DNA from: a virus
DNA length: 64,000 nucleotides
Virus record (IMG/VR): IMGVR_UViG_3300038465_000091
Span: 124,001 to 188,000 of that record
Strand: one strand, 5' to 3'
The number at the start of each line of letters is the position of its first letter. Position 1 is the stretch's first letter. The notes under the pieces were generated by a model. That model had not been told where the DNA came from. It did no database searches and saw nothing but the letters and a program-made list of their open reading frames with translations. Below, piece by piece: positions 6,643-22,098 of this stretch. The position numbers and the translations under genes are program-made.

Positions 6643-6681
6643 CAAAATTCCTATCGATTCTGATCCATTTTTGGGTATAAT
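6643..6681 (+). promoter_or_regulatory. Promoter with conserved upstream CAAAATTCCTA element
   Basis: CAAAATTCCTATCG at 6643-6656 and GGGTATAAT at 6673-6681. The same pair of elements, at nearly the same distance (32-33 bases), occurs at 7620/7652 and 10190/10222, suggesting a phage-specific promoter class. Confidence 0.5.
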
Positions 6682-6713
6682 AGTCTTTCAGGCTCTTCTA
6701 TAGGGGATACCTT

Positions 6714-7109
6714 ATGCATGGAACTGGCGATGTCTTAGGCGATCTGCTCAAGATCGCGGCAATGAACAAGGCGCAGATCGAGAAGCTCCTTGAACATTGG
6801 CAGATGGTGCAGCAAAAGAACCCCCCATCATCTGGGGAATGGCAAGACGCCTCAAAGCGAATCCACGAATTGGCCGAAATTCAACGACTCGTCACCGATG
6901 CGCTCAAGAACCCTTTTGGGAAGCCCGACTACAAGTTCGTCAACCTCGAAGAGGTCTCCGCTCTTTTCAAGCGTCAGATCGAGCGGCTGGGTTGCACCGA
7001 TGTCAAAATAGCGGCCACTTTGAATCACGACGCTATTGACATCGAAGCTCGCTTTACACCCCCGCCATCCCCAATTGTTATCAGTTTCACGGTTGAACCG
7101 AAGGAGTAA
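6714..7109 (+). CDS. Unknown protein, helical N-terminal half
   Basis: A 131-residue protein with a long helical N-terminal half (about residues 10-75, Lys, Glu and Leu rich, coiled-coil-like) and a C-terminal beta-rich part ending in VISFTVEPKE. TAGGGGA lies 10 bases before the ATG and a clear promoter lies at 6676. No family recognised. Confidence 0.65.
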   Translation: MHGTGDVLGDLLKIAAMNKAQIEKLLEHWQMVQQKNPPSSGEWQDASKRIHELAEIQRLVTDALKNPFGKPDYKFVNLEEVSALFKRQIERLGCTDVKIAATLNHDAIDIEARFTPPPSPIVISFTVEPKE

Positions 7110-7112
7110 CCC

Positions 7113-7325
7113 TTGGTTGAACACCACCACGAACGTTGCCACAGTTGCCATAAGCCGTTCGATCATGAATTGCTGGATTTCTTGTCCTGCGAATTGAATG
7201 AGTGCTACCGCTGCACTATGATCGACGAAAAAGACGCCTTCCGCCGTCTGCGGGAGTTGCGGCGTCGGATAATCGTCGGCAACCTGATGGATAGCGTGCC
7301 GATGGCGACGAAAGCGATCCAATGA
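7113..7325 (+). CDS. Small zinc-finger-like protein
   Basis: A 70-residue protein read from TTG 7113, placed 6 bases after AAGGAG. It contains HHHERCHSCHKPFDHE near the start and a second CELNECYRC cluster, which fits a four-Cys zinc site. The C-terminus is a basic helix (RRLRELRRRI). It overlaps the next gene by ATGA. DNA or RNA binding is plausible but not shown. Confidence 0.55.
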   Translation: MVEHHHERCHSCHKPFDHELLDFLSCELNECYRCTMIDEKDAFRRLRELRRRIIVGNLMDSVPMATKAIQ

Positions 7326-7615
7326 AACCCGATTGGACTCAAATCACCTTCGGCCCGCGTGCTCGCTGGGAACGCCGCGATGGGGCGATTGTGAGATACG
7401 ATGAGTCATCGCCATATCCCAACCCAGCCGTGTCCTCGGCAAAGATGTTCACGGCATGGGAGCCCGATCCTTCCGAGCGGGCGTTATCGATGGAGCGAGG
7501 CCACTGGCGAGTAGCTCAGGACGGGCACAGATTCAAGTTTTCGTTTCCTCGGCGATGGAAGACGGCAGAAGCAGCGATGCGGGCGGTGAACAAAGAATTC
7601 CCCTTTCAAAAATAA
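7322..7615 (+). CDS. Small protein of unknown function
   Basis: A 97-residue protein coupled by ATGA to the zinc-finger gene before it. It has several Trp and Arg residues, opens KPDWTQITFGPRARWERRDG and ends in a helix (KTAEAAMRAVNKEF). No catalytic motif visible. A promoter begins directly behind its stop. Confidence 0.6.
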   Translation: MKPDWTQITFGPRARWERRDGAIVRYDESSPYPNPAVSSAKMFTAWEPDPSERALSMERGHWRVAQDGHRFKFSFPRRWKTAEAAMRAVNKEFPFQK

Positions 7616-7619
7616 TTTT

Positions 7620-7657
7620 CAAATTTCTATCGAAAATCTCGACTTCCATGGTATTAT
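7620..7657 (+). promoter_or_regulatory. Promoter with conserved upstream element, extended -10
   Basis: CAAATTTCTATCG at 7620-7632 and TGGTATTAT ending at 7657. Spacing and sequence match the promoters at 6676 and 10222. It lies just upstream of a short frame, a terminator and the tRNA-Ile. Confidence 0.5.
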
Positions 7658-7664
7658 AGTAGAC

Positions 7665-7754
7665 ATGAAGCAGACACTCCAAACTCGAACTACAACGCAA
7701 CAAATTACAATTACGTGCGTGCGGGTCGGCGTGTCTGGTACTCAGGGTGAGTAA
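7665..7754 (+). CDS. Possible 29-residue leaderless peptide
   Basis: ATG 7665 lies seven bases after TATTAT and opens a 29-codon frame rich in Thr and Gln, ending 26 bases before a terminator. The promoter-peptide-terminator order resembles a leader peptide with attenuation, or a small RNA unit that happens to contain a short frame. No homologue known. Confidence 0.3.
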   Translation: MKQTLQTRTTTQQITITCVRVGVSGTQGE

Positions 7755-7780
7755 CCCCTAGAAAAATCAGAGACTTCCGA

Positions 7781-7806
7781 GCCGCCCACGGGCGGCTTTT
7801 GTATTT
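7781..7806 (+). terminator. Intrinsic terminator
   Basis: GCCGCCC/GGGCGGC hairpin with a two-base loop, followed by TTTTGTATTTT. It ends the short unit from the promoter at 7620 and directly precedes tRNA-Ile. Confidence 0.75.
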
Positions 7807-7883
7807 TGGCGGGTAGCTCAACTGGCTAGAGCACTGAACTGATAATTCAGAGGTTGGGGGTTCAAGTCCCTCTCCGCCAACCA
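7807..7883 (+). tRNA. tRNA-Ile (GAT)
   Basis: A canonical cloverleaf: acceptor TGGCGGG/TCCGCCA, D-arm GCTC/GAGC, anticodon stem CTGAA/TTCAG with loop CTGATAA, T-arm GGGGG, TTCAAGT, CCCTC, A73 and CCA encoded. Confidence 0.9.
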
Positions 7884-7902
7884 AATTTTAGAGGAGGTAG
7901 TC

Positions 7903-8040
7903 ATGGCTGAGACCTTGGAACAAGAGGATTACTCGACGTGGACTTCGTGCCAGATGTACGGGCACAATTACGTGACTGATGAAGATCAGCCGAACTATCA
8001 CTTCTGTACCGACTGTGACGAAGCTTACTTTGACGAGTGA
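7903..8040 (+). CDS. Small acidic zinc-ribbon-like protein
   Basis: A 45-residue protein with a strong GAGGAGG seven bases before ATG 7903. It is acidic and carries one Cys early (TSCQMYGHNY), and a later CTDCDE pair, a possible zinc site including His. It lies between tRNA-Ile and the next tRNA. Function unknown. Confidence 0.6.
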   Translation: MAETLEQEDYSTWTSCQMYGHNYVTDEDQPNYHFCTDCDEAYFDE

Positions 8041-8050
8041 GTTTCGTTGT

Positions 8051-8124
8051 GGACCCGTCTTCCAATGGCAGGATCGGCGACCGATTATCGCTCAATGGTG
8101 GTTCGAATCCATCTGGGTCTACCA
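8051..8124 (+). tRNA. tRNA, anticodon GAT with C33 (Ile-like, atypical)
   Basis: The acceptor is GGACCCG/TGGGTCT with two G-T end pairs; the D-stem is short (TCC/GGA); the anticodon stem GGCGA/TCGCT carries the loop CCGATTA; the T-arm is GGTGG, TTCGAAT, CCATC, with ACCA. Bases 34-36 read GAT, but base 33 is C instead of the near-universal U. It may be poorly active in decoding. Confidence 0.6.
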
Positions 8125-8143
8125 AGTTCAATGTGGCATATCG

Positions 8144-8190
8144 TACCCATACAGGGGCCGATTAGGGGAGTATAAGCCGCCTTATGGGTA
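8144..8190 (+). promoter_or_regulatory. Inverted repeat that includes a start codon
   Basis: TACCCATA (8144-8151) pairs with TATGGGTA (8183-8190). The second arm contains the ATG of the next gene, and the loop holds its AGGGGAG. Folding would hide the start codon, so translation may be controlled by RNA structure. Confidence 0.35.
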
Positions 8191-8357
8191 CAACGGACGA
8201 GCGACCATGCGAGGCGTGCGGAGTCAAGGCGGGTGGGAACCTGCGGATGCATGAGAAGGATTGTGCGTTGATCGCGAGTTATTGTGAAAGGTTTCCCGGG
8301 GGCAAGAACTCGCCGCAGTGGGAACGTAAAGGCCCTCGGATGAATGCGAAACACTAA
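8184..8357 (+). CDS. Small zinc-knuckle-like protein
   Basis: A 57-residue protein with a CEACG pair, followed by MHEKDC, a C2HC-like arrangement typical of compact zinc knuckles, then a basic C-terminus (KGPRMNAKH). AGGGGAG lies 13 bases upstream, longer than usual, and the start sits in a hairpin arm. It lies between two tRNAs. Confidence 0.5.
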   Translation: MGTTDERPCEACGVKAGGNLRMHEKDCALIASYCERFPGGKNSPQWERKGPRMNAKH

Positions 8358-8368
8358 AATTTAGAAAT

Positions 8369-8450
8369 GCTAGCGTGGCACAGTGGCGACTGCAATGGTT
8401 CCGTAAACCATCATACAACACCGGGGGTTCGAGTCCCTTCGCTAGCTCCA
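8369..8450 (+). tRNA. tRNA-Thr (CGT), atypical
   Basis: The acceptor is a perfect GCTAGCG/CGCTAGC; the anticodon stem ATGGT/ACCAT has loop TCCGTAA, giving CGT with C33; the T-arm is GGGGG, TTCGAGT, CCCTT; T73 and CCA are encoded. The D-stem is only three pairs (GCA/TGC) and the variable region is 11 bases. The amino acid is assigned from the anticodon only. Confidence 0.6.
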
Positions 8451-8456
8451 GATTTG

Positions 8457-8531
8457 CAGACGTAACACAATTGGCAGTGTACTTTCTTGGTAAGAAAGAG
8501 GTTGTGGGTTCGACTCCCATCGTCTGCTCCA
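8457..8531 (+). tRNA. tRNA-Thr (GGT)
   Basis: Cloverleaf with acceptor GCAGACG/CGTCTGC, D-stem ACAC/GTGT, anticodon stem CTTTC/GAAAG, loop TTGGTAA (GGT), T-arm GTGGG, TTCGACT, CCCAT, T73 and CCA. All tertiary landmarks are present. Confidence 0.85.
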
Positions 8532-8547
8532 TTTTTAGGAGAACAGC

Positions 8548-8844
8548 ATGTACAACTGTGAGATGTGCAACACGTCGTTCGAGGAAAAGGCGGACTTTCT
8601 CGCCCATCCTCATATCATCCAGAAGAAGCTACCAGTCGGTAGGGTGGAAGTGATGCACAGTTGCGGACACGTGGAAGTAGTCCGCAGTTTCGACGACCCG
8701 ATGTATTCGGAAGAGCGAATCGCAAAGCTCGGGAAGACGAAGGAACAGTTCGTAAAGGAACAGATTGAATGGTACGCGAGCGTGCCCTGTCCCGGCTGCT
8801 ACGTTCCTCGACACGGATATGCGATGAACGGGCCGTGTTGCTAG
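8548..8844 (+). CDS. Zinc-finger-like protein of unknown function
   Basis: A 98-residue protein, ATG 8548 after TTAGGAGA. It opens with YNCEMCNTSF and a following FLAHPH, a C2H2-like finger, and has a second cluster near the end (CPGC, then PCC). The centre holds HSCGHVEVV. It could bind nucleic acid. It is located between tRNA-Thr(GGT) and a pair of identical hairpins that overlap its stop codon. Confidence 0.6.
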   Translation: MYNCEMCNTSFEEKADFLAHPHIIQKKLPVGRVEVMHSCGHVEVVRSFDDPMYSEERIAKLGKTKEQFVKEQIEWYASVPCPGCYVPRHGYAMNGPCC

Positions 8845-8886
8845 GCGGGTAAGCGCCTAAGAAAAGTTTAGGCGGAAAGACGCCTA
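8842..8886 (+). repeat. Tandem hairpins with identical stems
   Basis: TAGGCG, GGTAAG, CGCCTA (8842-8859) and TAGGCG, GAAAGA, CGCCTA (8869-8886). The stem is the same 6 bp, the loops differ. The first hairpin includes the stop codon of the preceding gene. No U-run follows the first, and only a weak one follows the second, so these may be processing or protein-binding sites more than terminators. Confidence 0.5.
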
Positions 8887-8895
8887 CAAAAATTT

Positions 8896-8980
8896 GCTAC
8901 TGTGGCTCAGCGGCGACAGCACCGCACCTGTAATGCGGCGGGGAAACCCCACGGGAGTTCGAGTCTCCCCGGTAGCTCCA
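8896..8980 (+). tRNA. tRNA-Thr (TGT), atypical, with long variable arm
   Basis: The acceptor is GCTACTG/CGGTAGC; the anticodon stem CCGCA/TGCGG has loop CCTGTAA (TGT with C33); the T-arm is GGGAG, TTCGAGT, CTCCC; T73 and CCA are encoded. The variable region contains GGGG, AAA, CCCC, a real extra arm, unusual for Thr. The D-stem is short (GCT/AGC). Confidence 0.6.
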
Positions 8981-9065
8981 AGTTCGATTGATTCGTATGC
9001 CAGAAAGTGACTTATACGTCGCTTTTCAGCTACGGATCGATCTAAAGTGACGTAGAAATCACATT

Positions 9066-9139
9066 TGGGAGATCGTTCAACGGCAGGACGACAGACTTTG
9101 AATCTGTCTATCTAGGTTCGAATCCTAGTCTCCCAGCCA
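9066..9139 (+). tRNA. tRNA-Gln (TTG)
   Basis: Acceptor TGGGAGA/TCTCCCA with the weak first pair and G73 that are typical for tRNA-Gln, D-stem GTTC/GGAC, anticodon stem ACAGA/TCTGT, loop CTTTGAA (TTG), T-arm CTAGG, TTCGAAT, CCTAG, CCA encoded. Confidence 0.9.
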
Positions 9140-9151
9140 GTATTAGCCCTT

Positions 9152-9484
9152 ATGGGCTACAAAAACAAAACGGATCAACTAGCAAGCCAACGACGTTGGT
9201 ACAGCAACCATAAAGTTGAAGAGGTCGAACGAGTTCTTCAACGCCGACGTGATTTATACGACTGGCTCCGCAAATTAAAGAGAACTCTTAAGTGCAATCG
9301 GTGTCCCGAGAGTTTTTGGGTATGTTTGGATTTTCATCATACCGATCCAACTGAGAAGGACATGAGTGTGGCGCAGGCTGTTCGCAACGGTTGGAGCAAG
9401 AAACGCATCTTGGCTGAAATTGCCAAATGCGAGGTTCTTTGCAAGAACTGCCACGCGAAAGAGCACGCCAAAATTGGGAAGTAG
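9152..9484 (+). CDS. HNH endonuclease (probable homing endonuclease)
   Basis: A 110-residue protein with the HNH signature: a CNRC pair, then LDFHHTDP (the His-His strand), and CEVLCKNCHAKEH at the C-terminus with the second Cys pair and the last His. The N-terminus is basic and helical. This size and layout match freestanding phage HNH nucleases. ATG 9152 is five bases after TATTAG and may be leaderless; alternatively tRNA-Gln processing frees the 5' end. Its stop codon TAG is formed by bases 8-10 of the next tRNA, and its last codons are the 5' acceptor strand. Confidence 0.85.
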   Translation: MGYKNKTDQLASQRRWYSNHKVEEVERVLQRRRDLYDWLRKLKRTLKCNRCPESFWVCLDFHHTDPTEKDMSVAQAVRNGWSKKRILAEIAKCEVLCKNCHAKEHAKIGK

Positions 9485-9551
9485 CTCAATTGCGTAGAGC
9501 AACTGCCTTTGAAGCAGAAGGTTGGGGGTTCGAGTCCCTCCTTCCCAGCCA
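9475..9551 (+). tRNA. tRNA-Gln (TTG), second copy
   Basis: Acceptor TGGGAAG/CTTCCCA, G73, CCA; D-arm GCTC/GAGC; anticodon stem ACTGC/GCAGA (first pair A-A mismatch), loop CTTTGAA (TTG); T-arm GGGGG, TTCGAGT, CCCTC. It overlaps the end of the HNH gene by ten bases. Confidence 0.88.
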
Positions 9552-10189: not shown

Positions 10190-10227
10190 CAAAATTCCTA
10201 GCCAAAACGCAACCCCTTCGGTATAAT
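10190..10227 (+). promoter_or_regulatory. Promoter of the exopolysaccharide operon
   Basis: CAAAATTCCTA at 10190-10200 and CGGTATAAT ending at 10227, the third copy of the two-part promoter seen at 6676 and 7652. A GAGGAGA ribosome binding site and ATG 10245 follow. It is the only clear promoter before the GH16 and synthase genes. Confidence 0.6.
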
Positions 10228-10244
10228 GGGGACGAGGAGAATAC

Positions 10245-10607
10245 ATGGGAACAACTTGTCCATTGAATGATCTCGGGTTACATTTTTGTCAATGTAAGGA
10301 TGAGCCAGTTCGGTCGATCAACTCGAAAGAAGAGTTTACCCGCGCACTGACTCGCCTTGTCCTCACGCTAGCCGCTAAACTCGATCTGACGCCAACCGAT
10401 CTATACGGTGTGGTTGTTCGACTTAGTGACATCGATTCCGAGATCGTCACGAAATTCACCGAAGCACATGCGGGGCAGACTTTTGGTACCGCCGTTGAAG
10501 CGGGGCAGCGTAGCATGGAATTTCGCCGCGAATACCTCACCGCCCTTCTGGAAAATGAATCAAATATCTCAAACGAGGAACAGAACAATGAACTCACTAC
10601 TGACTAA
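10245..10607 (+). CDS. Small protein at the head of the exopolysaccharide operon
   Basis: A 120-residue protein with GAGGAGA seven bases before ATG 10245. CPLNDLGLHFCQC near the start gives three cysteines; the rest is helical with an acidic C-terminus. It overlaps the GH16 gene by 20 bases. No family recognised; a regulator of the operon is possible only by position. Confidence 0.6.
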   Translation: MGTTCPLNDLGLHFCQCKDEPVRSINSKEEFTRALTRLVLTLAAKLDLTPTDLYGVVVRLSDIDSEIVTKFTEAHAGQTFGTAVEAGQRSMEFRREYLTALLENESNISNEEQNNELTTD

Positions 10608-11373
10608 GGTTCGATCTCTTTCCGCTGGCGTGGTTGCCGTAGTTGTTGGTCTCTTCACACCAGCGACCATGCCCGCCCAAACCCCCACACCCACGTTTCA
10701 GGACACTTTTGTCGGCGGAAATTTCGATCCGTCGCTTTGGACCGTGGCCACTGGCCCAGCCGCTGGCGGCGGCGTGTATCTCGCGCAAAACGTGGACTCC
10801 TCCGAGGGACATTTGCGCCTGAAGCTCTCGCAGCGCAGAGAAGGCGCGGTTCTCATCTCCGAGGGCAGTGAAATCATGTCCAAGGGACTCTACGGATACG
10901 GCACCTACACCTACGTGATGCGGATGTCGTCAACCGCCGCCTCGCATAAACTTTCGGGCAAGTCTGTATCGGGTAGTGTGTCGGCTGGGTGGAATTACCT
11001 CCCGGGATCGGAGACCGAGATTGATTTCGAATTTCGTGCGGATAAGCCGAACGGCGTCCAAGTGGGTTGTTTCACGAATCGCGACCCATCGCGACAAGAG
11101 ACCCGCATCCATATCAGTTCGATGAGTAGGAACTCTAACTTAGAGCAAAGCTTCCACACATACACCTTTATATGGACTCCAAAGTCCATCGTTTGGTACG
11201 TAGATGGGAAAAAGTCTTGGCAGACGAACAGCAACGTGCCGACGAAGCCAGCCCAGATTCGCATCAACCACTGGGGCATCGACAATCCGAAGTTCGGCGG
11301 CTCAGCTACCGTGAACGTGGATCGGTACATGTACGTGAAGAGCGTGAGTTTCGCGCCCCTCGCGGGAAAGTAG
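10588..11373 (+). CDS. Secreted GH16 family glycosidase
   Basis: GH16 enzymes cleave beta-glucans, agar-type galactans and related polymers. ATG 10588 follows GAGGAACA. Residues 1-31 form a signal peptide (basic start, hydrophobic GVVAVVVGLF, cut near MPAQ). The catalytic ExDxE core is ETEIDFE, with Glu144, Asp146 and Glu148 as nucleophile, helper and acid/base by family analogy. C-terminal beta strands (YTFIWTPKSIVWYVDG) are typical of the fold. At 261 residues it is a normal size. It should act in the periplasm or outside and may trim the polymer made by the neighbouring synthase. The stop is TAG, and the frame continues downstream into a membrane segment. Confidence 0.85.
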   Translation: MNSLLTKVRSLSAGVVAVVVGLFTPATMPAQTPTPTFQDTFVGGNFDPSLWTVATGPAAGGGVYLAQNVDSSEGHLRLKLSQRREGAVLISEGSEIMSKGLYGYGTYTYVMRMSSTAASHKLSGKSVSGSVSAGWNYLPGSETEIDFEFRADKPNGVQVGCFTNRDPSRQETRIHISSMSRNSNLEQSFHTYTFIWTPKSIVWYVDGKKSWQTNSNVPTKPAQIRINHWGIDNPKFGGSATVNVDRYMYVKSVSFAPLAGK

Positions 11374-11379
11374 GGGACT

Positions 11380-11460
11380 GTGAACATCTACATCTACGTC
11401 GTTGCCCTTTTAGCGGTCATCATTGGCGTGCTTAAAAAGGCATATCGGAAAGAAAGCTGA
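11380..11460 (+). CDS. Small membrane peptide or amber-readthrough extension of GH16
   Basis: A 26-residue frame from GTG 11380 encodes one hydrophobic span (IYIYVVALLAVIIGVL) and a basic tail (KKAYRKES). It is in the same frame as the GH16 gene, only two codons past the GH16 amber stop, so readthrough would add exactly this anchor to the enzyme. Its own start has AGTAGGGGACT upstream, so independent translation is also possible. Its stop overlaps the synthase start. Confidence 0.45.
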   Translation: MNIYIYVVALLAVIIGVLKKAYRKES

Positions 11461-12731
11461 TGCCTATGAAACACTATCTAACGCCCGAGTTCCTGATGGT
11501 CATAACGGTGTTGATGCCCGTGATCTACTTGGTCTTCAGGGCGATCTACATGGCTTTCTCCGAGACCATTCACCCGAAGAAGGCGCAGGTCCAGAAAGAC
11601 GTGAACCACACGCCCTCCGTGGCCGTGGTCATTCCGTGCTACAACGAAGGGAAGGGCGTCTACGACTGCATCAAGCATATCTGGGAGAGCGACTACCCGA
11701 AAGACATGCTCAAGATTTACCCGCAGGACGACGGCTCAGTGGACGACAGTTGGGAGTGGATGCTCAAGGCGGCGAAGGATTTTGATCGGGTGTACCCGGA
11801 AAGAAACGGCGGCGACGTACCGAAAAACAAAGGCAAGACGGACACGTACCTCAGGGCGATGGAACGTGCGGAGCCTTCCGAGATTCTCGTGAACGTGGAT
11901 TCCGACACTCTCGTCGGCACGGACACCATCAGAAAGATGTTGCAATGTTTCGCGGACCAACGTATCGGCGTCGTCGGCGCACCAGCGGGCATCATCAACG
12001 CGAACGACAGCATATTGACCGCGTTGCAGGCGTACAACTGGACATTCTACAACCAATTCCTCGTCAACCTTGAGAGCACCTACAGGGCCAATCAGGTGTG
12101 CGGCGGGTGGAGCCTCGCGGTCAGGCGGCACATCCTCGAAGAGATAGCCCCCGAAATTTTGGGTCGGCACTGGTTCGGCTGCTCCACCAAGGACGGGGAA
12201 GATCGTTTCATCACGCATCTGGCGCTTCTCCGAGGCTGGGACAGCTACGTAGTGCAGAACACGTGCAGCAAGACCCACGCAATGGAGAACTGGACGCGGT
12301 ATTGGGGACAGCAAGTACGATGGCGCAGAAGCACTTACCGAAGCTTCTGGTGGGTGCTGCGGAAACTGTGGTACCACACGGGGCGCATGAACCCTGCGGC
12401 TCTGTGGGCTATTCTCTCGCAGGGCTTCATGTTCTTCGCGCTCGTAATAATCATCGTCCACTTCGCCCTTACGATGCCCTTTGCCCTCCTGAGCCCTGTC
12501 AAGGTAGCTATTTTTCTTGGCATTTCTTCTGCCTTGATGATACTATGGGACAGGAAGATGAACTGGCAAAAACTCAGGAATCCGTTCAAAACCATATTGG
12601 TGATCCCGTGGGCCATCACCAGCATGTTCTATCTCGCCATCGTATGCCTGCTCTCGCTGGATCAGGATGCATGGGGAAACAGGATTAAAACAACGCCAAC
12701 ACCACCGACTTCGAAGGAGTTATCACAATGA
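11460..12731 (+). CDS. Processive GT2 glycosyltransferase (polysaccharide synthase)
   Basis: Such enzymes polymerise and extrude a polysaccharide through the inner membrane, using nucleotide sugars. The 423 residues hold one N-terminal membrane helix (about 11-33), then the family motifs in order: VVIPCYNEG (56-64), QDDGS (89-93), DSD (147-149), GED (246-248, the catalytic base region) and QQVRW (284-288, the QxxRW motif). Three or four membrane helices follow (about 308-400). The set matches hyaluronan synthase, NodC and Alg8 types; the sugar cannot be fixed from sequence. It overlaps the genes before and after (ATG 11460, ATGA at 12728), indicating coupled expression with the membrane-fusion protein. 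Confidence 0.85.
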   Translation: MPMKHYLTPEFLMVITVLMPVIYLVFRAIYMAFSETIHPKKAQVQKDVNHTPSVAVVIPCYNEGKGVYDCIKHIWESDYPKDMLKIYPQDDGSVDDSWEWMLKAAKDFDRVYPERNGGDVPKNKGKTDTYLRAMERAEPSEILVNVDSDTLVGTDTIRKMLQCFADQRIGVVGAPAGIINANDSILTALQAYNWTFYNQFLVNLESTYRANQVCGGWSLAVRRHILEEIAPEILGRHWFGCSTKDGEDRFITHLALLRGWDSYVVQNTCSKTHAMENWTRYWGQQVRWRRSTYRSFWWVLRKLWYHTGRMNPAALWAILSQGFMFFALVIIIVHFALTMPFALLSPVKVAIFLGISSALMILWDRKMNWQKLRNPFKTILVIPWAITSMFYLAIVCLLSLDQDAWGNRIKTTPTPPTSKELSQ

Positions 12732-13780
12732 AGTTTTTCGGGTTCGACAGAATCAATTTGATGCGGAAGGGCGTCTTGTCTGTCTACCGCGTCTTCTCAC
12801 TCGTCACGCTGTACAGCATCCTTTTCTGCATTTTGGCCTATGCGGGTGCCTTGCTGTTCTATTCGGCAAGCACGTCGTGGATCGTGCCATTCATGGTCAC
12901 CAAGTCCGACATTTCCGTGCTCGCGATAGGCGGTCAGTTGGCTACGTCCACTCAGGCCGTCAACGCGCTTCAACTGGACTACGACAAGACCGTCAAGACG
13001 CTGATCGAGGCAAAGGCGCAGGAGAAAAGCCTCGGTGCCCTCAACCGTCAGATTGACCGCACCATCACGGCACAGAAAAAGGTGTGGGCTGGTCCTACCG
13101 TCGAACTGAAGGATTACGAAACGCAAAAGAAAACCAACAACGCGGTCCTGACGCAAGACACCCTCACGGGCAAGGACCTGCGCCGTATCATCCAAAAAGA
13201 CTTGGCAGAAGGGATTATCACGAAGGCGGACGCCGAGACGGAATTGCTTCAGTTGGACTCGTTTGACAACGCCGCCACGGACAGCAAGATCGCCACGACC
13301 CTGCTGAACGATAGCGTCCGCCAGCACCAGATGGTTGACATCAGCGGACTCGATGTTCTGGCGCAGAAGGCCCAACTAGAAGTCCTGATAAGCCAAGTAC
13401 GTGTGGTGGTCGAGACTGCCGAAGAGGAATTGAGTCTTGACCGAGCGTCCATCAAGGTCATTGACGAGGTTGTCAAGACCGCGACGGGCAGCCCGTTCTA
13501 CTCGGTGATTGATGCGGCTAAGCCAGTTTCATTGGCAATCGTGCCGTACAACCTTGACACTCCGCGTTTGCCACAGGGGGCTCAGGTGTTCGACTGCTTC
13601 TTTGGCATGGTGATATGCCGTAAAGCGGGCACGATCAAAGCGGTGTACACGAATGAGCAATTGTTCGAGCACCCCATCCTTCACATCAACATGCGCGGGT
13701 ACATCGTGGCAATCGACGTGGATGACGATGCCGCCAAGTCGAAAACCCTCATCGTGGGACGCAAGCCATTCTTATTCTAG
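12728..13780 (+). CDS. HlyD/Alg44-like inner-membrane fusion protein
   Basis: A 350-residue protein with a single membrane helix at about residues 25-52 and a periplasmic remainder: a long helical coiled-coil (about 75-270, rich in Ala, Gln, Lys, Asp) followed by a short beta-rich C-terminus (PRLPQGAQVFD, then AGTIKAVYTNE). This is the layout of membrane-fusion proteins that bridge an inner-membrane exporter or synthase to an outer-membrane channel, as Alg44 does for alginate. No PilZ domain is seen at the N-terminus. It overlaps the synthase stop and lies 8 bases before the outer-membrane factor. Confidence 0.7.
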   Translation: MKFFGFDRINLMRKGVLSVYRVFSLVTLYSILFCILAYAGALLFYSASTSWIVPFMVTKSDISVLAIGGQLATSTQAVNALQLDYDKTVKTLIEAKAQEKSLGALNRQIDRTITAQKKVWAGPTVELKDYETQKKTNNAVLTQDTLTGKDLRRIIQKDLAEGIITKADAETELLQLDSFDNAATDSKIATTLLNDSVRQHQMVDISGLDVLAQKAQLEVLISQVRVVVETAEEELSLDRASIKVIDEVVKTATGSPFYSVIDAAKPVSLAIVPYNLDTPRLPQGAQVFDCFFGMVICRKAGTIKAVYTNEQLFEHPILHINMRGYIVAIDVDDDAAKSKTLIVGRKPFLF

Positions 13781-13788
13781 GGAGAAAT

Positions 13789-14862
13789 ATGAAAACGCTG
13801 GTTATTATCGCTGCTCTACTCCTCACGGGAGTCTCCCAAGCGCAAATCGCGCTTGACCAGAAGGACCATTGCGATGCTATGATGGAGCAGGCGAGGGGTC
13901 TCGCGGCCCAGCTTCGCATCCCCAGTCTCGTCGTTGGGGGCACCGCACCAGCCGCAGGCACAGCACCCCAGATTTATACGGGCCTGCAAAACAGCCTTGC
14001 CAGCGATAGGAAGGCTGCCGACGCGATCCAACTCGCTATCCGCACGTGTTCGCTGTACAACACCACGGAGGATGCCACGTTGCGGTTGTTTTACGCCGCT
14101 CCCAGCTTGCAGAAAACCGCACTGGATCACCGCGCCATCATCGACAGCATAGCGGAGACCCAGTTGAACACCATAATCGCGGACGCACAGAAAAGGGTCG
14201 AAGCACAAAACTTGCCACGGCCCGCGCTCTACCTGTTGCAATCCTCTCGGGCTAGGCTGGAATTGGACAGGGCATCGTCTGCGGCGACCGCCGTGGCTTT
14301 CTATATTCCCGAGGGAATGAACCCCGCGCCCATCAGCCAGTTGCTCAGCATCAAGCAGCAAGAGGAAATCATCGTACAGAAAGCCACGGAAAAGTATGCC
14401 CGAGCGGCTAATTGGGACGTGCTGTTTGAGGGTGGTATGCATCACCAGCTAACATCCACTAGCACTCCGGGGACGCCCGTCAGCAGTTCGACAGGTGCTT
14501 ATGGCGGAGCGACTCTCACTTGGGGTCTCGGCACCCAAAAGGCCGACAAGCATTTCGACAAGGCTGTGACGGCATACGGCAAGTGGAAAGAGACGCAGGA
14601 AGGCGATGTCATCCGTACCGCCATCGCCCTCAGAAAGACGCTCACGGACAGCATCACCGTGCTCGGGAGCAACCTGAAGATGCTACAAGATCAGGGAGAC
14701 GCAATCGACGCCAATCTCGAACTGGTCAAGGACGCCGACACCAGCGCGTCCCTCGCTTTCAAGATGCAGTTGCAGGCCGACAGATTGCTGCTTAGGGTTG
14801 AAGTCGAGGACACGCAGTTCCGCCTCGATGCCTTGCAGACGTACCTAGCGGACAACTTTTAA
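13789..14862 (+). CDS. TolC-like outer-membrane efflux protein
   Basis: A 357-residue protein with a clear signal peptide (MKTLVIIAALLLTGVSQAQ). The mature part is almost entirely helical with two long helix pairs (about 110-200 and 255-350) flanking a beta-rich GGMHHQLTSTSTPG-type segment (about 215-250), the repeat plan of TolC-family channels. It is shorter than TolC (about 470) but close to some polysaccharide exporters. Order and spacing behind the fusion protein support a role as the outer-membrane pore for the polymer. Family assignment is by architecture. Confidence 0.6.
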   Translation: MKTLVIIAALLLTGVSQAQIALDQKDHCDAMMEQARGLAAQLRIPSLVVGGTAPAAGTAPQIYTGLQNSLASDRKAADAIQLAIRTCSLYNTTEDATLRLFYAAPSLQKTALDHRAIIDSIAETQLNTIIADAQKRVEAQNLPRPALYLLQSSRARLELDRASSAATAVAFYIPEGMNPAPISQLLSIKQQEEIIVQKATEKYARAANWDVLFEGGMHHQLTSTSTPGTPVSSSTGAYGGATLTWGLGTQKADKHFDKAVTAYGKWKETQEGDVIRTAIALRKTLTDSITVLGSNLKMLQDQGDAIDANLELVKDADTSASLAFKMQLQADRLLLRVEVEDTQFRLDALQTYLADNF

Positions 14863-14868
14863 GGGGAT

Positions 14869-16243
14869 ATGATGAAGATCGCGATTGTGGGTAGCGGATA
14901 CGTGGGGCTCGTGGCAGGCGCTTGTTTCGCCGAAATCGGGCACGATGTCGTGCTGGTGGACAACGACCCCAAGAAGTTAGCGGTGCTCAGGGCGGGGCAG
15001 TGCCCCATTCACGAAGAACAATTGCCAGAATTGTTGAAGAAACATTTGGGGCGTAAGCTCACGTTTACTGACAACCTTCATCAGGCGGTGAGCGCAAGCA
15101 AGGCTATTTTCATTGCTGTAGGTACGCCAGACGGTGGTGATGGTAAGGCCGACTTGTCCTATGTCGAAGCTGTAGTCCGATCCATCGCGGGGGCGATTAA
15201 CGACTATAAGGTGATCGTGGAAAAATCCACGGTGCCTGTATTGACAAGTGAAGCCATTCGCCAAACCCTCCTGCTTAACGGAGCGGACCCCACCAAATTT
15301 GACGTAGCGTCGAATCCCGAATTTTTGAAAGAGGGTACGGCGGTCGCCGATTTCCTTCGCCCAGATCGGATTGTGATTGGCACCGACAGTGAGCGAGCCA
15401 TCGGTGTCTTACGGGAAATTTATGCCCCCATGGTCGCCAGTGGCTATCGTTTGATCGAAACCAGCACCAAAAGCGCCGAACTCATCAAGCACGCATCCAA
15501 CGCTTTCCTTGCGATGAAAATCAGTTTCGTCAACGCTGTCGCTTCGGTGTGTGAGCAAGTGGGGGCAGACGTGACGGAAGTTGCCGAGGGCGTTGGCGCG
15601 GATAGTCGTATTGGACCGCAATTCCTCAAGCCGGGTATCGGCTACGGGGGTTCTTGTTTTCCCAAGGACTTGATGGCATTCAAAGCTGTCGCGGAACAGA
15701 ACCATTACAAGATCAGGCTGTTGGAAGAAGTCAGCCATATCAACGGCGATCAACAAAAACGGTTCATGAGCAAAATTCGTGAAGCTCTCTGGACGTTGCG
15801 TGGGAAACGGTTGGCGGTTCTGGGGCCTCGCATTCAAGGGAGGCACGGATGACATCCGTGAATCCCCCGCGATCTCGATCATCCAAACGCTCTTGAAGGA
15901 AGGTTGCCACATCGTGGCGTACGACCCCGCCGCCATGGATAATGCTCGCAAGGCGTTTAATGAGTGCTCGACCACGTGTCCTCATAAATGTGATGGGACT
16001 ATCGAGTACGCAACAGACTCATACGCGGCGGCTCGGAACGCAGACGCTTTGTTGATACTGACGGATTGGCCTGAATTTGTGGAATTGAATTTGGACCAAC
16101 TTGAGTTAAAAAACCCTTTGGTGATCGATGGGCGCAACCTGTACGATCCGAAGGTTATGGCGAATCTTGGGTTTACCTACTACAGCGTAGGTCGCCCCAT
16201 AGTGCGCGGCAAGACACCCGAAAAATTGGCAGCAACCGAATAA
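14869..16243 (+). CDS. ugd: UDP-glucose 6-dehydrogenase, split by a frameshift
   Basis: This enzyme oxidises UDP-glucose to UDP-glucuronate with NAD. The first part has the Rossmann start MKIAIVGSGYVGLVAGACFA, then NPEFLKEGTAV, DRIVIG and the active-site Cys motif GYGGSCFPKD. The C-terminal domain continues in another frame from LAFKGGTDDIRESP and ends at 16243. The switch is at a run of four G (15822-15825): removing one G restores a full-length protein of about 457 residues. This may be a sequencing error, a real mutation or frameshifting. It follows the outer-membrane protein after AAGGGGAT and should supply the synthase with UDP-glucuronate. Confidence 0.85.
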
Positions 16244-16247
16244 CGGG

Positions 16248-16276
16248 TTGTGTCCACCCCACTAACGTGCTATAGT
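16248..16276 (+). promoter_or_regulatory. Promoter before the Asn/Gln/Gly-rich protein
   Basis: TTGTGT, 17 bases, TATAGT. Directly behind are two short hairpin-like repeats around AGTGGTAA (16274 and 16292), which may be an operator. The next ATG is at 16354 after AAGAGAAAAAT. Confidence 0.5.
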
Positions 16277-16353
16277 GGTAATACACCACCAGTGGTAACA
16301 TTTTCATTGTAGCAAGTAACTTGACTTCACCAAGAAAAGGAAAAGAGAAAAAT

Positions 16354-17793
16354 ATGAATTTCAAACGTACGTTGTTTTTGGCAGTAATGGCGATGGCTCT
16401 ATCATGTACGGCTTTCGCGTGGAATTGTTCCGATCCTCTGGCATCGCGTGTTGACGTAGGACCAGTCAATCCGGGCGGCTCCGCAGGCGACGGCGACGGC
16501 CAGTGGTTCCTCGGCACAGGTTCCGAAGGCACCAAGGGTGACTACTACGTCTGCGAAGTTCCCAAGAAGTCCACAGGCGGCGGGTCTTCGACCACGAACA
16601 CGAATTCCAACACCAACAATAACTCCAACCAGCAAGGTCAGCAACAAGGTCAGCAACAGGGCCAACAGCAAGGACAGACCGCGAACGGCGGCTCCTCGTC
16701 CAGCACCGCTACGGGCGGCAACGCCACGGGTGGTAATGCGACAGCCACAGGCGGACAGGGCGGAAGCTCTTCGTCCAAGTCTGGCGTAACCAACAGCGGC
16801 AACTCTTCCGCGACAGGTGGTGCGGGTGGGGCTGGCGGTGCAGGTGGTGCAGGCGGTTCAGTGAGTGGTTCAGGTAACTCCACGAACACGAACAACGTGA
16901 ACACGACCGTGGCTCCCGTTATCACTTCGACGAACAAGCTGAGCAACAGCGGCAACTCGTCCAACACGAACAACAACACCGCGAACGGCGGCACGTCGAA
17001 TGCCAACGGCAACGGCTCGAACAACACGACTTCGGCTTCGTCCAACCAGACGCAATCGAACTCTTCGACCAATGCCAATCAGTCGTCAGCTTCTAACCAA
17101 GCGAACGGCAACGGCAGCAACTCGAATAACACCGTCAACAACTCAGTAGTGGAAGCTCCGAAAATTCCGGTTAACACTGCTTACGCTCCGACAACCATCC
17201 CAACGTCACCCTGTCTCAAGTCTTACAGCGGCGGCGGGCAGGGTTCAAGCTTCGGTTTGAGCTTCGGCGGAAGTAAGTCAGACAAGAACTGCCAACTGCT
17301 TGAGCTTGCACGATCCTTTGATTCCATGAACGAGCGTCTGGCAGGCTGCAAGATTAAGGTTGAAGCTGCCAAGAAGATCGCCAAGGATGCCGATGTCACA
17401 GTGGAAGACTGCATGATGCATGAGATGGTCGCCGTTCCAGTTCCTACGGCGCTATTAGCACCTATTGCTGCACCTGCCCCACAGGTGATCGTGGTTCAAG
17501 TGCCAGCGGTCGCGCCCGCTCCCGTCGCTCCAGTCGTCTCGAATGTCATTTCGTCCTTCCAAGGCTTCTACACGCAATTCAACAACGTGGCGAAGGCGCG
17601 GTTCGACGGAACGATTCTCTTGATGAAGAACAACCTCGATGGTCATCTTCGCCTTCGTTTCAACCCCGCAACTGCGGCGGTCGTTGATAGCATTCAAGCG
17701 TACCTGATTGCTAACGGCATTGACCGTGAGCGCATCGAAGCGCGTGATGACGGCCATGAAAAGGGCGTCGAAGTGCTCTTCATCGCTCAGTAG
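16354..17793 (+). CDS. Secreted low-complexity Asn/Gln/Gly/Ser-rich protein
   Basis: A 479-residue protein with a signal peptide (residues 1-22, ending TAFA). Residues about 75-275 are low complexity: four QQGQ-type units (nt 16628-16680), Gly-Gly-Ala runs and Asn/Ser/Thr stretches, typical of disordered or fibrous surface proteins. A conserved-looking C-terminus (about 400-479) has AKARFDGTILLMKNN and LRLRFNPATAAVV, faintly like an OmpA-type domain. Four cysteines flank the segment near residues 290-350. It closes the operon before a terminator, so it may be a matrix or surface protein that works with the polysaccharide. Not a family I can name. Confidence 0.7.
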   Translation: MNFKRTLFLAVMAMALSCTAFAWNCSDPLASRVDVGPVNPGGSAGDGDGQWFLGTGSEGTKGDYYVCEVPKKSTGGGSSTTNTNSNTNNNSNQQGQQQGQQQGQQQGQTANGGSSSSTATGGNATGGNATATGGQGGSSSSKSGVTNSGNSSATGGAGGAGGAGGAGGSVSGSGNSTNTNNVNTTVAPVITSTNKLSNSGNSSNTNNNTANGGTSNANGNGSNNTTSASSNQTQSNSSTNANQSSASNQANGNGSNSNNTVNNSVVEAPKIPVNTAYAPTTIPTSPCLKSYSGGGQGSSFGLSFGGSKSDKNCQLLELARSFDSMNERLAGCKIKVEAAKKIAKDADVTVEDCMMHEMVAVPVPTALLAPIAAPAPQVIVVQVPAVAPAPVAPVVSNVISSFQGFYTQFNNVAKARFDGTILLMKNNLDGHLRLRFNPATAAVVDSIQAYLIANGIDRERIEARDDGHEKGVEVLFIAQ

Positions 17794-17811
17794 TCCAGCC
17801 CCTCCCCACGA

Positions 17812-17844
17812 CCCCTCGCCGATCCTTGGCGGGGGGTTTTCTTT
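17812..17844 (+). terminator. Intrinsic terminator of the exopolysaccharide operon
   Basis: CCCCTCGCC, 7-base loop, GGCGGGGGG, then TTTTCTTT. It ends the unit that begins at the promoter near 10222. Confidence 0.8.
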
Positions 17845-18603: not shown

Positions 18604-19122
18604 ATGAAGTACCGTTATATTCTTTGCTGGTCAGGCAATGAAGCCGACATGGAATGGGGCGGGGCTTATGATTGCGCTTGTTGCATCACCTATATAGGCG
18701 AGGACGCTGCCGTAGCGGGCTGTGGCTGCATCTGTCATCAGCGCATTGAAAAGATTGTCCAAAATCCAGACCTACGGATGTTCTTGCTGGCCCTAAGTAG
18801 CTCCGAGGAAATGCCATTCGTCCCCAAGGATTATCCCGACTGGATGACGTACAATCGCAAGCTCAAGCGGGAGCACGATGTCTGGCGCAAAGAAGGTAGT
18901 CCCAACGCTGGCACCTTTGAAGACATCTCCAAGTGCTGCGAAGCCTGTAAGATGGTTGCTGAGATGGAAGTCCGCTTCCAAGAACACCAGAAAGACCCCA
19001 AGAACCAGTGCGGCAAGCCGTGCCACGTCTGTGACGAGGCTAATGCCGCTCACGCAGTCGAGCTAAAGGAGATCAAACTCATCTCCAAGAAGTTTGCCAG
19101 CAAGAAGAAAAAGAGAGACTAA
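18604..19122 (+). CDS. Cys-rich protein of unknown function
   Basis: A 172-residue protein; ATG 18604 is taken, since upstream starts lie inside the nuclease gene. It has many cysteines in pairs (CACC, CGCICH, CCEAC, CGKPCHVC), suggesting two or more metal sites, and a Lys-rich tail. Its stop overlaps the PP2C start (TAATG). Function unknown. Confidence 0.6.
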   Translation: MKYRYILCWSGNEADMEWGGAYDCACCITYIGEDAAVAGCGCICHQRIEKIVQNPDLRMFLLALSSSEEMPFVPKDYPDWMTYNRKLKREHDVWRKEGSPNAGTFEDISKCCEACKMVAEMEVRFQEHQKDPKNQCGKPCHVCDEANAAHAVELKEIKLISKKFASKKKKRD

Positions 19123-19916
19123 TGAGCAAGCGTAAGAGCAAGCAGGCGGTTAGCCGCCCCATGGTGTTGACGGGTGCCACGAATAAGGGGATGCGGAGCT
19201 ATCAGGAAGACCGACATCTGATGATCTCCGCTGAAGAAGGCTTGATTATGGTCGTCATGGATGGTCATGGCGATGCGGGCTGTGCTCTCCTCTTAGAGAA
19301 GAAATTCTGCGAGGTTTGGGACTCTGTTTTCTCCCCCGAGAAGAGCCCCGACATTCTCTTCAAGGAACTCTTCGATAAGTTCGATATGCTCACTTCATTC
19401 ATGGGCTGCGGGTCCACCATGAGTGTCGCCTTCATCCCGAAAGCTAACACAGGGAAAGAGACTAAAGTTCATGTCGCCATCCTCGGCGACTCCCCGGTGA
19501 TCGTGCAGCAACCAGATGGGACATTCCATGTCAGCCCCGAACATAACGTCCGCACCAACATGGCGGAACGTGCAGCGGCTCAGGCACGCGGCGGCTACTA
19601 CTCCTCGAACGGCTATATTTGCTACGGCCCAGAAGGGCATGGGTTGCAGATGAGTCGAGCTTTCGGCGACCGCGATCTGGGAAAAATCCTTTCCCGCATT
19701 CCCGAGGTCTACACGGTTGAATTGGGTGACTGGGTTCTGGTGGGATCGGACGGACTTCTATCCCCCGGCCACGATGAATCGGGAGTGCAGATGCTTCTTG
19801 ACATCGTGAAGATGATCGAGGAGCAGGATGTCAACGCCGAGGAACTCGTTGATTACGCTGCTAACGTGGTAAAAACAGGGGACAACGTAACGGCGATTTT
19901 GTGGAGGAGATCATGA
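19122..19916 (+). CDS. PP2C-family serine/threonine phosphatase
   Basis: PP2C phosphatases remove phosphate from Ser/Thr using two metal ions. The 264 residues contain the family motifs in order: NKGMRSYQEDR, VVMDGHGDAG (metal Asp), VAILGDSPVIV, SRAFGDRDLG, LVGSDGLLSPG (metal Asp) and GDNVTAILW at the end. All key Asp residues appear intact, so it should be active. Phage PP2C enzymes are uncommon; targets could be host signalling kinases or phage-borne phosphorylation. It is coupled to the gene behind it by ATGA. Confidence 0.9.
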   Translation: MSKRKSKQAVSRPMVLTGATNKGMRSYQEDRHLMISAEEGLIMVVMDGHGDAGCALLLEKKFCEVWDSVFSPEKSPDILFKELFDKFDMLTSFMGCGSTMSVAFIPKANTGKETKVHVAILGDSPVIVQQPDGTFHVSPEHNVRTNMAERAAAQARGGYYSSNGYICYGPEGHGLQMSRAFGDRDLGKILSRIPEVYTVELGDWVLVGSDGLLSPGHDESGVQMLLDIVKMIEEQDVNAEELVDYAANVVKTGDNVTAILWRRS

Positions 19917-20137
19917 GTAAGATTGTAAAACGCGAAATGTTCGATGAGGATATGGACAATATAGTTTTGGAGTGTGGTCATGGTCTCATTGCCCACACAA
20001 TCCCGAACCCAATGGTAATTGCCGCAGGATTTCCAGATGCTTCCGTTCCAAAGGATGCTATCGAAATTTCATGTCCCGTCTGTGAATGCAACCCCAGCGA
20101 GCTTTATAACCCTCATCCAGTCCTTAAATGCAGTTAA
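19913..20137 (+). CDS. Small zinc-binding protein of unknown function
   Basis: A 74-residue protein from ATG 19913, with GGAGGAGAT just upstream and an ATGA overlap with the phosphatase. It has LECGHGLIAH and CPVCEC, a Cys/His set that could bind zinc. It overlaps the helicase start by ten bases. It could serve as a partner for either neighbour; no evidence beyond position. Confidence 0.6.
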   Translation: MSKIVKREMFDEDMDNIVLECGHGLIAHTIPNPMVIAAGFPDASVPKDAIEISCPVCECNPSELYNPHPVLKCS

Positions 20138-22098
20138 ATGAAGAACAGACGCTCGCGGTTGAACACCCGCTCGACGAACCCGCCTGCCTCATCGCAGGCG
20201 CGGGCAGTGGCAAGACCGCTACTATGACCGCCCGAGTCAAATGGCTAATAGCTCATGGCGTCAAGCCCCGCCGTATAGCGGTTATTACGTTCACTAATCG
20301 TGCAGCGGGGGAGCTTGTAGCGCGTATAGGCGTGACCGATCCTCATTCCCCCGATTCTCCGCGTGTTAGCACCATCCACAGCTTGGCCTTATCCGCAATC
20401 CGCAAAAACCCCCTCGGTTTTGGTCTTCAAGAGAGAGTCTCTCCGCTGGATGATTACGATCAGAGTCAGATGATGAAGAAGATCATCGAGCGAGAGAAAA
20501 TTACCGACACAAATCCGTATGCCGTTTTGGAAAAGATTCAGTTTCATCGTGCTCGTGGCGTTGGATTTGTGGTGGACTATACCGAAGAAGTCGCCGAAGA
20601 AGCTGAGCGTATGTACAGTGGGTACCACCTGATGTCGGACACGGATTTGAAGCTTTGGGGATTATACCAAACCGAAAAAACACGAACGAACGTGCTCGAC
20701 TTCGATGACATGATTTTGTTGTGTAATAGGCGGTTTGCAACAGATGAGGATTGGAAACGGCGCATACAAGCGATGTGGGATCATGTGCTTGTCGATGAGG
20801 TTCAAGATATATCGAAGATTCAGTGGCAGTTCATCGAAGGTCTACTCGCACCCGACAACTTTAACCTATTCGTTGTTGGGGATTTGAACCAAAGTATCTA
20901 CTCATTTACCGGGGCGGCACCGTATCTCCTCAAACAATACAGCGAGAACTGGCGAAGTGTAGTTCCTCGCATGTACAAAATCGTCCGCAATCACCGCAGC
21001 GTACCTGAAATCGTTCGATTGGCTAACGTTATTCAATCTAAAATGGGCGAGGGTTCTATTCCGCTAAAAATGGAAAGCTGGCGTGGTGGAAATGGAGAAA
21101 GCGGCAAAATAGAAATCCTCAAAGGGGTCATGGCGTCAGAGATCGCCGCCGATATCGCTGTTGAGATTTTCAAAGACAACGAAAAGTTCCTGCGTGATGA
21201 ACGTACACGTGCCGAAGGTGGGACACCCCGAGAGTCACAAGCGAAACCGATCTCCTATCGAGAAAATTTCATTCTGGTAAGAGCCGCAATCCAGATTCGT
21301 GATATTGAAACTGAGCTAGTAAGGCGCAGAATTCCATACGTCGTGCGAGGAGGTCGGGGCTTACTCCAAACTGAAGAAGTTAGAGATGTACTAGCGTACA
21401 TGCGGTTGGCTACGAACCATAAAGATTTTATGGCTTTCGTTCGAGCCGCTCAGGTGCCTCGACGCGGGTGTGGCGAGGTTGCTTTGGAGAAAATCCGCGC
21501 CATAGCCAATGGTAAATACGACGGTGATCTAATCGCCGCCGCTGAGGGGGATAAAAATGCGAAGATCGCGTCCTTTGGCGGCGTTGTCAGACTCGTCACC
21601 CAATTTAGTGAGAACCCCGTTGCTATGCTTGAACGAACGCTTGCCTTGACCCAGTACACAACTTACATCAGCGACAAGTACAAAAGAGATAGTGGTAAAG
21701 TCAAAACCAAACTTGAGAATCTTGATCGTTTCGGTTCACTCATTGATGGGCTGGTTGCTGACGGCGCGATGACCGCTGAGGACATGATTTTCCAACTCAC
21801 GCTTGATCGTCCGAAAGATGACGATGAGTCGGGAGCCGTCACGATCAGCACAATTCATAGCGCCAAGGGACTAGAGGCCAAAAGAGTCTATGTTAATAAT
21901 GTAACAGAGGGCAGCCTCCCTCACAAATTTTCGTCTGGAAATGAAGAAGAAATTCGCGAAGAGAGGCGTTTGTTTTACGTCGCCTGCACACGAGCACGAG
22001 ATTATCTGATCCTGTGTATTCCTGCCCTGCTTCAGCAGGGTCCCAATGTTACTAACCTTCGGCCATCCCGTTTCTTGATAGAAATCGGCGTTGCCTAG
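20128..22098 (+). CDS. UvrD/Rep-type superfamily 1 DNA helicase
   Basis: An ATP-driven 3'-5' helicase for repair, replication or recombination. The 656 residues show motif I AGAGSGKT (about 23-30), motif Ia ITFTNRAAGEL, motif II VDEVQD, motif III near GDLNQSIYSF, motif IV/V region TISTIHSAKGLEA and motif VI FYVACTRARDYL. The motif order and length match UvrD-like enzymes. The start at ATG 20128 is weakly spaced but overlaps the upstream gene. All ATPase residues appear intact. Confidence 0.92.
   Translation: MQLNEEQTLAVEHPLDEPACLIAGAGSGKTATMTARVKWLIAHGVKPRRIAVITFTNRAAGELVARIGVTDPHSPDSPRVSTIHSLALSAIRKNPLGFGLQERVSPLDDYDQSQMMKKIIEREKITDTNPYAVLEKIQFHRARGVGFVVDYTEEVAEEAERMYSGYHLMSDTDLKLWGLYQTEKTRTNVLDFDDMILLCNRRFATDEDWKRRIQAMWDHVLVDEVQDISKIQWQFIEGLLAPDNFNLFVVGDLNQSIYSFTGAAPYLLKQYSENWRSVVPRMYKIVRNHRSVPEIVRLANVIQSKMGEGSIPLKMESWRGGNGESGKIEILKGVMASEIAADIAVEIFKDNEKFLRDERTRAEGGTPRESQAKPISYRENFILVRAAIQIRDIETELVRRRIPYVVRGGRGLLQTEEVRDVLAYMRLATNHKDFMAFVRAAQVPRRGCGEVALEKIRAIANGKYDGDLIAAAEGDKNAKIASFGGVVRLVTQFSENPVAMLERTLALTQYTTYISDKYKRDSGKVKTKLENLDRFGSLIDGLVADGAMTAEDMIFQLTLDRPKDDDESGAVTISTIHSAKGLEAKRVYVNNVTEGSLPHKFSSGNEEEIREERRLFYVACTRARDYLILCIPALLQQGPNVTNLRPSRFLIEIGVA

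Follow-up and report, generated by a model that had tools for sequence, protein, structure and literature searches.

A candidate phage-borne cassette for polysaccharide synthesis and export, with relatives in other large phages and in Acidobacteriota

Phages are well known for stripping or modifying host surface sugars. The locus described here raises the question of whether a phage may also carry the means to build a whole polymer and move it out of the cell. It lies in a 64,000-nucleotide stretch of viral DNA (the window), bases 124001–188000 of the 223,506-base virus record IMGVR_UViG_3300038465_000091 (G000 in our record labels), for which a first-pass annotation made from the letters alone had proposed an operon that makes, exports and trims a glucuronate-containing exopolysaccharide. 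We found at this locus a family 2 glycosyltransferase (GT2), a periplasmic adaptor and an outer-membrane factor (OMF), together with a GH16 glycanase, and the GT2–adaptor–OMF trio recurs in other phages and in bacteria. We favor, at a probability of roughly 0.78, a phage-borne accessory polysaccharide cassette of bacterial origin that works as a tripartite synthase–export machine and confers a benefit at the cell surface, a reading that builds on observed gene content, motifs, predicted folds, recurrence and allelic variation.

The cassette and the predicted roles of its products

The features of the locus, in window coordinates, are these:

10199–10227, plus strand: promoter-like site TAGCCA-17-TATAAT (consensus scan, 10/12 matches; the scan alone is no proof of function)
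10245–10607, plus strand: small operon protein of 120 amino acids, with a homologue inside a bacterial copy
10588–11373, plus strand: secreted GH16 endo-β-glycanase, lichenase/ExoK-like, with EIDFE (PF00722, E = 1.7e-20)
11460–12731, plus strand: processive GT2 polysaccharide synthase, like hyaluronan synthase (HAS) and NodC (PF13641, E = 1.9e-16; PDB profile search; motifs)
12728–13780, plus strand: predicted inner-membrane-anchored periplasmic adaptor, EmrA-like (AlphaFold2 model, Foldseek; ATGA overlap with the GT2 stop)
13789–14862, plus strand: predicted TolC-fold OMF (AlphaFold2 model, Foldseek)
14869–15852, plus strand: UDP-glucose 6-dehydrogenase, N-terminal and central domains (PF03721, E = 6e-61; PF00984, E = 3e-36)
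15779–16243, plus strand: UDP-glucose 6-dehydrogenase, UDP-binding domain, in the +1 frame of the same broken gene (PF03720, E = 2.8e-30)
16354–17793, plus strand: secreted low-complexity protein, a phage backbone neighbor (orthologues in G004, G006, G010, G011 and G012)
17810–17838, plus strand: strong intrinsic-terminator-like hairpin (13-pair stem, then a T-rich tail)

The GT2 bears out the earlier claim of a processive synthase with all motifs: DD, DSD, GED and QxxRW are present and invariant in 21 homologues, giving the processive inner-membrane GT2 with DxD, (T/G)ED and QxxRW by which synthase-dependent exopolysaccharide systems are recognized. Its 423 amino acids include three hydrophobic segments by hydropathy and no C-terminal extension of the kind that binds cyclic di-GMP (c-di-GMP). 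The best matches in the PDB profile search were hyaluronan synthases, viral ones included (E 5e-37 to 1e-32). NodC-type models outscored all other NCBIfam models, yet fell far below their cut-offs, PHROG 841 matched weakly, and tblastn against named phages returned distant transferases only. We treat the kinship with class I hyaluronan synthases as a relation of sequence, from which the product cannot be read; a β-glucan-like and a hyaluronan-like polymer would both be possible.

The GH16 glycosidase of the first-pass annotation also held, by its Pfam match and by an intact EIDFE catalytic motif (residues 144–148) that places it in the EXDXE group (lichenase/ExoK/XTH-like). Its best PDB matches were 1,3-1,4-β-glucanases, its nearest NCBIfam models were BglS and ExoK (both far below cut-off), and the product has an N-terminal hydrophobic segment. 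The motif is kept in every GH16 of the operon family that we examined (phage record G010 and bacterial loci L122, L127 and L130); tblastn against named phages gave no match.

For the adaptor and the OMF we found no meaningful sequence match in Pfam, PHROG, NCBIfam or the PDB, and tblastn against named phages found neither. We built AlphaFold2 models from alignments of 20 (adaptor) and 22 (OMF) homologues. The adaptor model (mean predicted local distance difference test (pLDDT) score 84.6) shows a membrane anchor, a long helical hairpin and a C-terminal β domain, and its Foldseek matches are EmrA (4tko, E = 3.5e-6), the EmrAB-TolC complex (8zal) and MacA (3fpp). The OMF model (pLDDT 90.9, predicted template modeling score 0.78) consists of long helices with two inserted strand pairs per protomer and matches TolC, OprJ and SilC (38 matches at E ≤ 0.001, best 2.7e-10). 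Judged by predicted fold, the operon would hold dedicated periplasmic and outer-membrane export components, the former of HlyD/EmrA adaptor fold and the latter of TolC fold; HlyD sequence profiles did not match the adaptor, and the TolC efflux family did not match the OMF in Pfam, NCBIfam or PDB sequences. The labels "Alg44/HlyD-like" and "TolC-like" in the first-pass annotation are thus kept as an EmrA-like adaptor and a TolC fold on the strength of structure prediction, without support from sequence. The comparison with Alg8/Alg44/AlgE was dropped and an Alg44/AlgE identity rejected: Pfam gave no PilZ domain in any of the 20 adaptors, no AlgE-type or TPR-barrel porin was found (the OMF model is TolC-like, with no Pfam match of note), and the folds match EmrA and TolC instead. 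Among predicted viral structures, no TolC-like fold matched at E ≤ 0.001.

Several known systems resemble this arrangement in part. Alg8/Alg44/AlgE, Bcs and Pga share a processive inner-membrane GT2, periplasmic and outer-membrane export parts and an associated glycanase, whereas the set here is phage-carried, with a predicted TolC-fold OMF, an EmrA-like adaptor and no PilZ domain found. Rhizobial BgsA/BgsB (PMC9495663) likewise pairs a GT2 with an HlyD-like membrane-fusion partner; the phage set would differ in its HAS/NodC-like GT2 lacking the c-di-GMP extension and in having its own TolC-like protein and GH16. The EmrAB-TolC and MacAB-TolC pumps are alike in the predicted folds of adaptor and OMF, but the inner-membrane engine here is a polysaccharide synthase rather than a transporter, and there is no sequence similarity. 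Among phage genes, those of O-antigen conversion (GtrB-like) and glycosyltransferase cargo are comparable in that they, too, may change the surface of the host; here we find a whole synthesis and export set and not a single modifying transferase. The open-access literature that we searched contained no description of a phage-coded exopolysaccharide export set.

At its 5′ end, the operon appears to include a small open reading frame (ORF, 10245–10607) absent from the first-pass annotation. Its product is 97% identical in L170 and has 39% identity over 82 amino acids (E = 4e-17) to a 105-amino-acid protein of the Acidobacteriaceae locus L127, where that homologue sits between GH16 and GT2. Because the homologue lies inside the acidobacterial copy, we count the ORF, on this sequence evidence, in the core set, which spans 10245–14862 and comprises the small protein, GH16, GT2, adaptor and OMF.

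The 3′ end is less clear. All domains of a UDP-glucose dehydrogenase are present at 14869–16243, as had been claimed, but not in one reading frame: a one-base (+1) shift near 15824, in a GGGGCC context, breaks the gene, and the identical break occurs in a second contig (L100 of record G001), so that neither assembly holds an intact frame. We rejected sequencing error as the cause, since the same base is seen in both contigs (a shared systematic error is still possible); the split may be a recent pseudogene or programmed +1 frameshifting. Among 27 related records, the near-identical G001 is the one that has the gene; it is missing between the OMF and the low-complexity gene in G006, G010 and G012. 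Its many phage relatives (best 40–48% identity) mark it, by itself, as what looks in sequence like an ordinary phage gene. Because the dehydrogenase is frameshifted and seen only in this phage type, the glucuronate-containing polymer of the first-pass annotation is unproven, and the absence of the dehydrogenase from the sister operons argues in the same direction.

The low-complexity protein is present at 16354–17793 as described, but we rejected it as a member of the system because its gene is retained in relatives G004 and G011, where the trio is absent. The sequence TATAGT near 16271, promoter-like by eye and not listed by the consensus scan, precedes this gene. A single promoter-to-terminator unit, from the promoter-like site ending at 10227 to the terminator-like hairpin, is therefore doubtful at its 3′ end, where a separate promoter-like site stands before the low-complexity gene, which persists without the operon. 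By eye, the protein has a strongly conserved middle block and an OmpA-like-looking C terminus in G004, G006 and G010–G012; it also matches PHROG 20531 (E = 3e-20), which may reflect composition.

Recurrence in phages and bacteria

Relatives of the phage were sought with a putative capsid gene as query (46489–47448; the label is ours), which yielded 80 related loci in virus contigs, several of them in records of 155–463 kb; the window GT2 alone, as query against viral contigs, gave no match. The trio is complete in six virus records: G000, G010 (463 kb), G012 (332 kb), G035 (99.7 kb), G036 (111.5 kb) and the 20-kb contig of L106. Its order is conserved throughout, at 24–40% protein identity between phage copies, and parts of it (the OMF, or pieces of GT2 and adaptor) stand at contig ends in G001, G006 and G886. 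A GH16 gene lies upstream of the trio in G010; the corresponding slot in G012 holds a 209-amino-acid secreted protein without a GH16 motif or Pfam match, and G035 has a weak dehydrogenase-like gene between adaptor and OMF. The cassette has the same flanks in G000, G010 and G012, with an upstream gene at 81–86% protein identity and a PP2C-like phosphatase downstream, and in a second assembly, G001, a 9-kb stretch running from the OMF into the phage genes downstream is 99.96% identical.

Closely related phages differ at this site. The G886 contig is 100% identical to our record for 24.1 kb, up to window position 10100, and keeps the small ORF at 97%; beyond it lies a diverged allele (protein identity 38.5% for GH16, 59% for GT2 and 65% for the start of the adaptor). 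In record G006 the putative capsid protein is 98% identical; this record begins within an OMF that is 40% identical to that of the window and 56% to that of G010 and is directly followed by the low-complexity gene. G004 (capsid 99%) is without the trio, other genes filling the gap, and G011 is also without it and has a dehydrogenase fragment at the site. A diverged allele on a near-identical backbone, and relatives with a third allele or without the trio, indicate that the cassette is a module that can be exchanged while the backbone around it stays stable, and its site is a cargo hotspot. The G004 site also holds a radical-SAM-looking gene (CxxxCxxC by eye; L150:1546-3068), and the G011 site an apparent fusion of the start of a radical-SAM-looking gene with the nucleotide-sugar dehydrogenase fragment (L151:4734-5542).

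A scan of bacteria with the adaptor as the sole query, at one genome per species, found 17 loci, mostly in Acidobacteriaceae and Sulfotelmatobacter and also in Paraburkholderia, Ralstonia and Diaphorobacter. An OMF is present at all 17 and a GT2 at 16, the remaining locus being cut by a contig end. A GH16 gene lies ahead of the trio in L122 and L127; L130 has a GH16-like protein with EIDIE and no Pfam match; nucleotide-sugar dehydrogenases neighbor the trio at the three Burkholderiales loci (Paraburkholderia, Ralstonia and Diaphorobacter). The system is rare (10/300 genomes in the Granulicella family, 2/297 in its phylum and 1/274 in the Ralstonia class, counts that include the centre genomes). 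Because adaptor and OMF belong to no Pfam or NCBIfam family, the trio is apparently an undescribed bacterial export system. Two bacterial adaptors are damaged, one by an in-frame TGA (G050, L132:10001-11019) and one by a split (L129), which suggests turnover in bacteria too.

In a joined three-protein tree, the phage copies are scattered among the bacterial ones, and the G036 copy falls together with that of bacterial L127, with full support. A single phage clade was rejected by the approximately unbiased (AU) test for the joined tree (p = 1.2e-6) and for GT2 alone (p = 5e-11); the window copy sits on a long branch, and such branches call for caution in this test. Repeated transfer is the simplest reading of these sequence trees.

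Proposed mechanism and alternatives

We propose that the GT2 would build a polymer from nucleotide sugars of the host on the cytoplasmic side of the inner membrane and pass the chain through that membrane, that the EmrA-like adaptor would conduct the chain across the periplasm as far as the TolC-like OMF, and that the secreted GH16 would cut or trim the β-linked chain. Phages would have acquired the cassette repeatedly from bacterial operons of Acidobacteriota type, and it would now sit at a variable locus in a lineage of jumbo phages, with exchange of alleles there. Its most likely benefit would lie in altering or coating the host surface, so that infected cells and debris are shielded from other phages or from progeny of the same phage; we favor this role because it fits both allele exchange and dispensability. 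We infer expression during infection, polymer export, polymer identity and benefit. A precedent for such a coat is chlorovirus hyaluronan, which covers the infected cell and inhibits attachment of other viruses, although its benefit is still unclear (PMC5408694). The first-pass idea of a phage set for synthesis, export and trimming thus survives in its GT2, adaptor and OMF folds, GH16, recurrence and bacterial homologues, while the Alg-type identity and the glucuronate do not.

Several observations weigh against this proposal. Adaptor, OMF and their complex are without a sequence-family match. The assignment of the adaptor to EmrA draws on three matches at E ≤ 0.001, and coiled coils tend to give loose matches; single chains give TM-scores of about 0.3 for the adaptor and 0.35–0.47 for the OMF against TolC, modest values that would support the fold class and not the detailed geometry. 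The allele swap of G886 is seen in one metagenome contig and could be mimicked by an assembly join of two strains. Closely related records without the operon show it to be dispensable, and the syntenic region of the nearest cultured relative, Tunturiibacter phage Tunturi_5, has no such operon.

The nature of the polymer divides the alternatives. A β-glucan or mixed-linkage β-glucan, made by a BgsA/BgsB-like system and trimmed or released by a lichenase-type GH16, is a possibility to which we lend some weight, short of even odds: the GH16 best matches are 1,3-1,4-β-glucanases and ExoK, and BgsB, an HlyD-like protein, is encoded together with its partner, the GT2 synthase BgsA, in a two-gene operon (PMC9495663). 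The synthase, however, is closer to HAS and NodC than to cellulose synthases and lacks the C-terminal c-di-GMP-binding extension, and GH16 enzymes span many substrates. We think it unlikely that the GT2 instead alternates glucuronate, supplied through the phage UDP-glucose dehydrogenase, with N-acetylhexosamine, as in chloroviruses. That solved hyaluronan synthases are the best GT2 matches, that dehydrogenase domains directly follow the OMF, and that dehydrogenases or dehydrogenase-like genes accompany the trio in the Burkholderiales and in G035 would all suit such a product, but the frame of the phage dehydrogenase is broken in both assemblies where the gene occurs, the gene is absent from 26/27 related records and from the sister operons, the NodC-type scores and the unreadable product do not single out hyaluronan, and GH16 enzymes of this type cut β-glucans. 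The first-pass analogy to chloroviruses (PMC5408694) thus holds for the virus-coded class I HAS-like synthase, with a UDP-glucose dehydrogenase gene also present here, and fails for the glucuronate part; chloroviruses, moreover, infect algae, encode no envelope-spanning export proteins and do not have these genes in one operon.

Other explanations question whether the cassette does anything for the phage, or belongs to it. Recently acquired bacterial DNA that is being lost, with no role in infection, would account for the dehydrogenase frameshift, the lack of the cassette in close relatives and the long branch of the window copy; we consider this very unlikely, as GT2, adaptor, OMF and GH16 are intact, catalytic motifs are kept in diverged phage copies and gene order is conserved across phages at the low identities given above. 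A misassembly joining phage to host DNA, which the first-pass annotation had named as a way for its proposal to fail, has in its favor that the trio is bacterial in kind. We give it almost no credence and exclude a host chimera, because the same phage genes flank the cassette in G000 and in two other records, G010 and G012, where it occupies the same place; the 9-kb match of G001 also speaks against it.

If the cassette works as a tripartite synthase–export machine, several large phages would be equipped to make an entire polymer and export it. We tentatively suggest, as a conjecture that is more likely to fail than to hold, that a self-contained polysaccharide factory spanning the envelope circulates among Acidobacteriota phages as interchangeable alleles, that the coat shown by an infected cell is thereby specified by the phage, and that allele switching among near-identical phages is to viruses what capsule or O-antigen switching is to bacteria, deciding which other phages adsorb. 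Allele exchange, if true, would offer a natural experiment on the purpose of viral polymers.

The phage genome around the cassette

Tunturi_5 is a 309-kb myovirus that infects an acidobacterium (PMC11924767); its tail sheath and connector are 44% (full length) and 46% identical to those of our record. Upstream of the cassette lies a tRNA gene cluster (5024–9551) that includes a tRNA with an amber-type anticodon (called tRNA-Pyl, cta, 5385–5460) and another whose predicted anticodon, ctag, has four bases (5464–5543); the two may act as an ordinary suppressor and a frameshift suppressor. TAG still serves as stop in 8 of the 31 long plus-strand ORFs of the window. By eye, GIY-YIG-looking homing-endonuclease ORFs lie within the structural gene region (26767–27495, 29895–30617 and 48197–49135), and a PP2C-like protein phosphatase gene (19122–19916), conserved in the phage lineage, adjoins a UvrD-like helicase gene (20128–22098).

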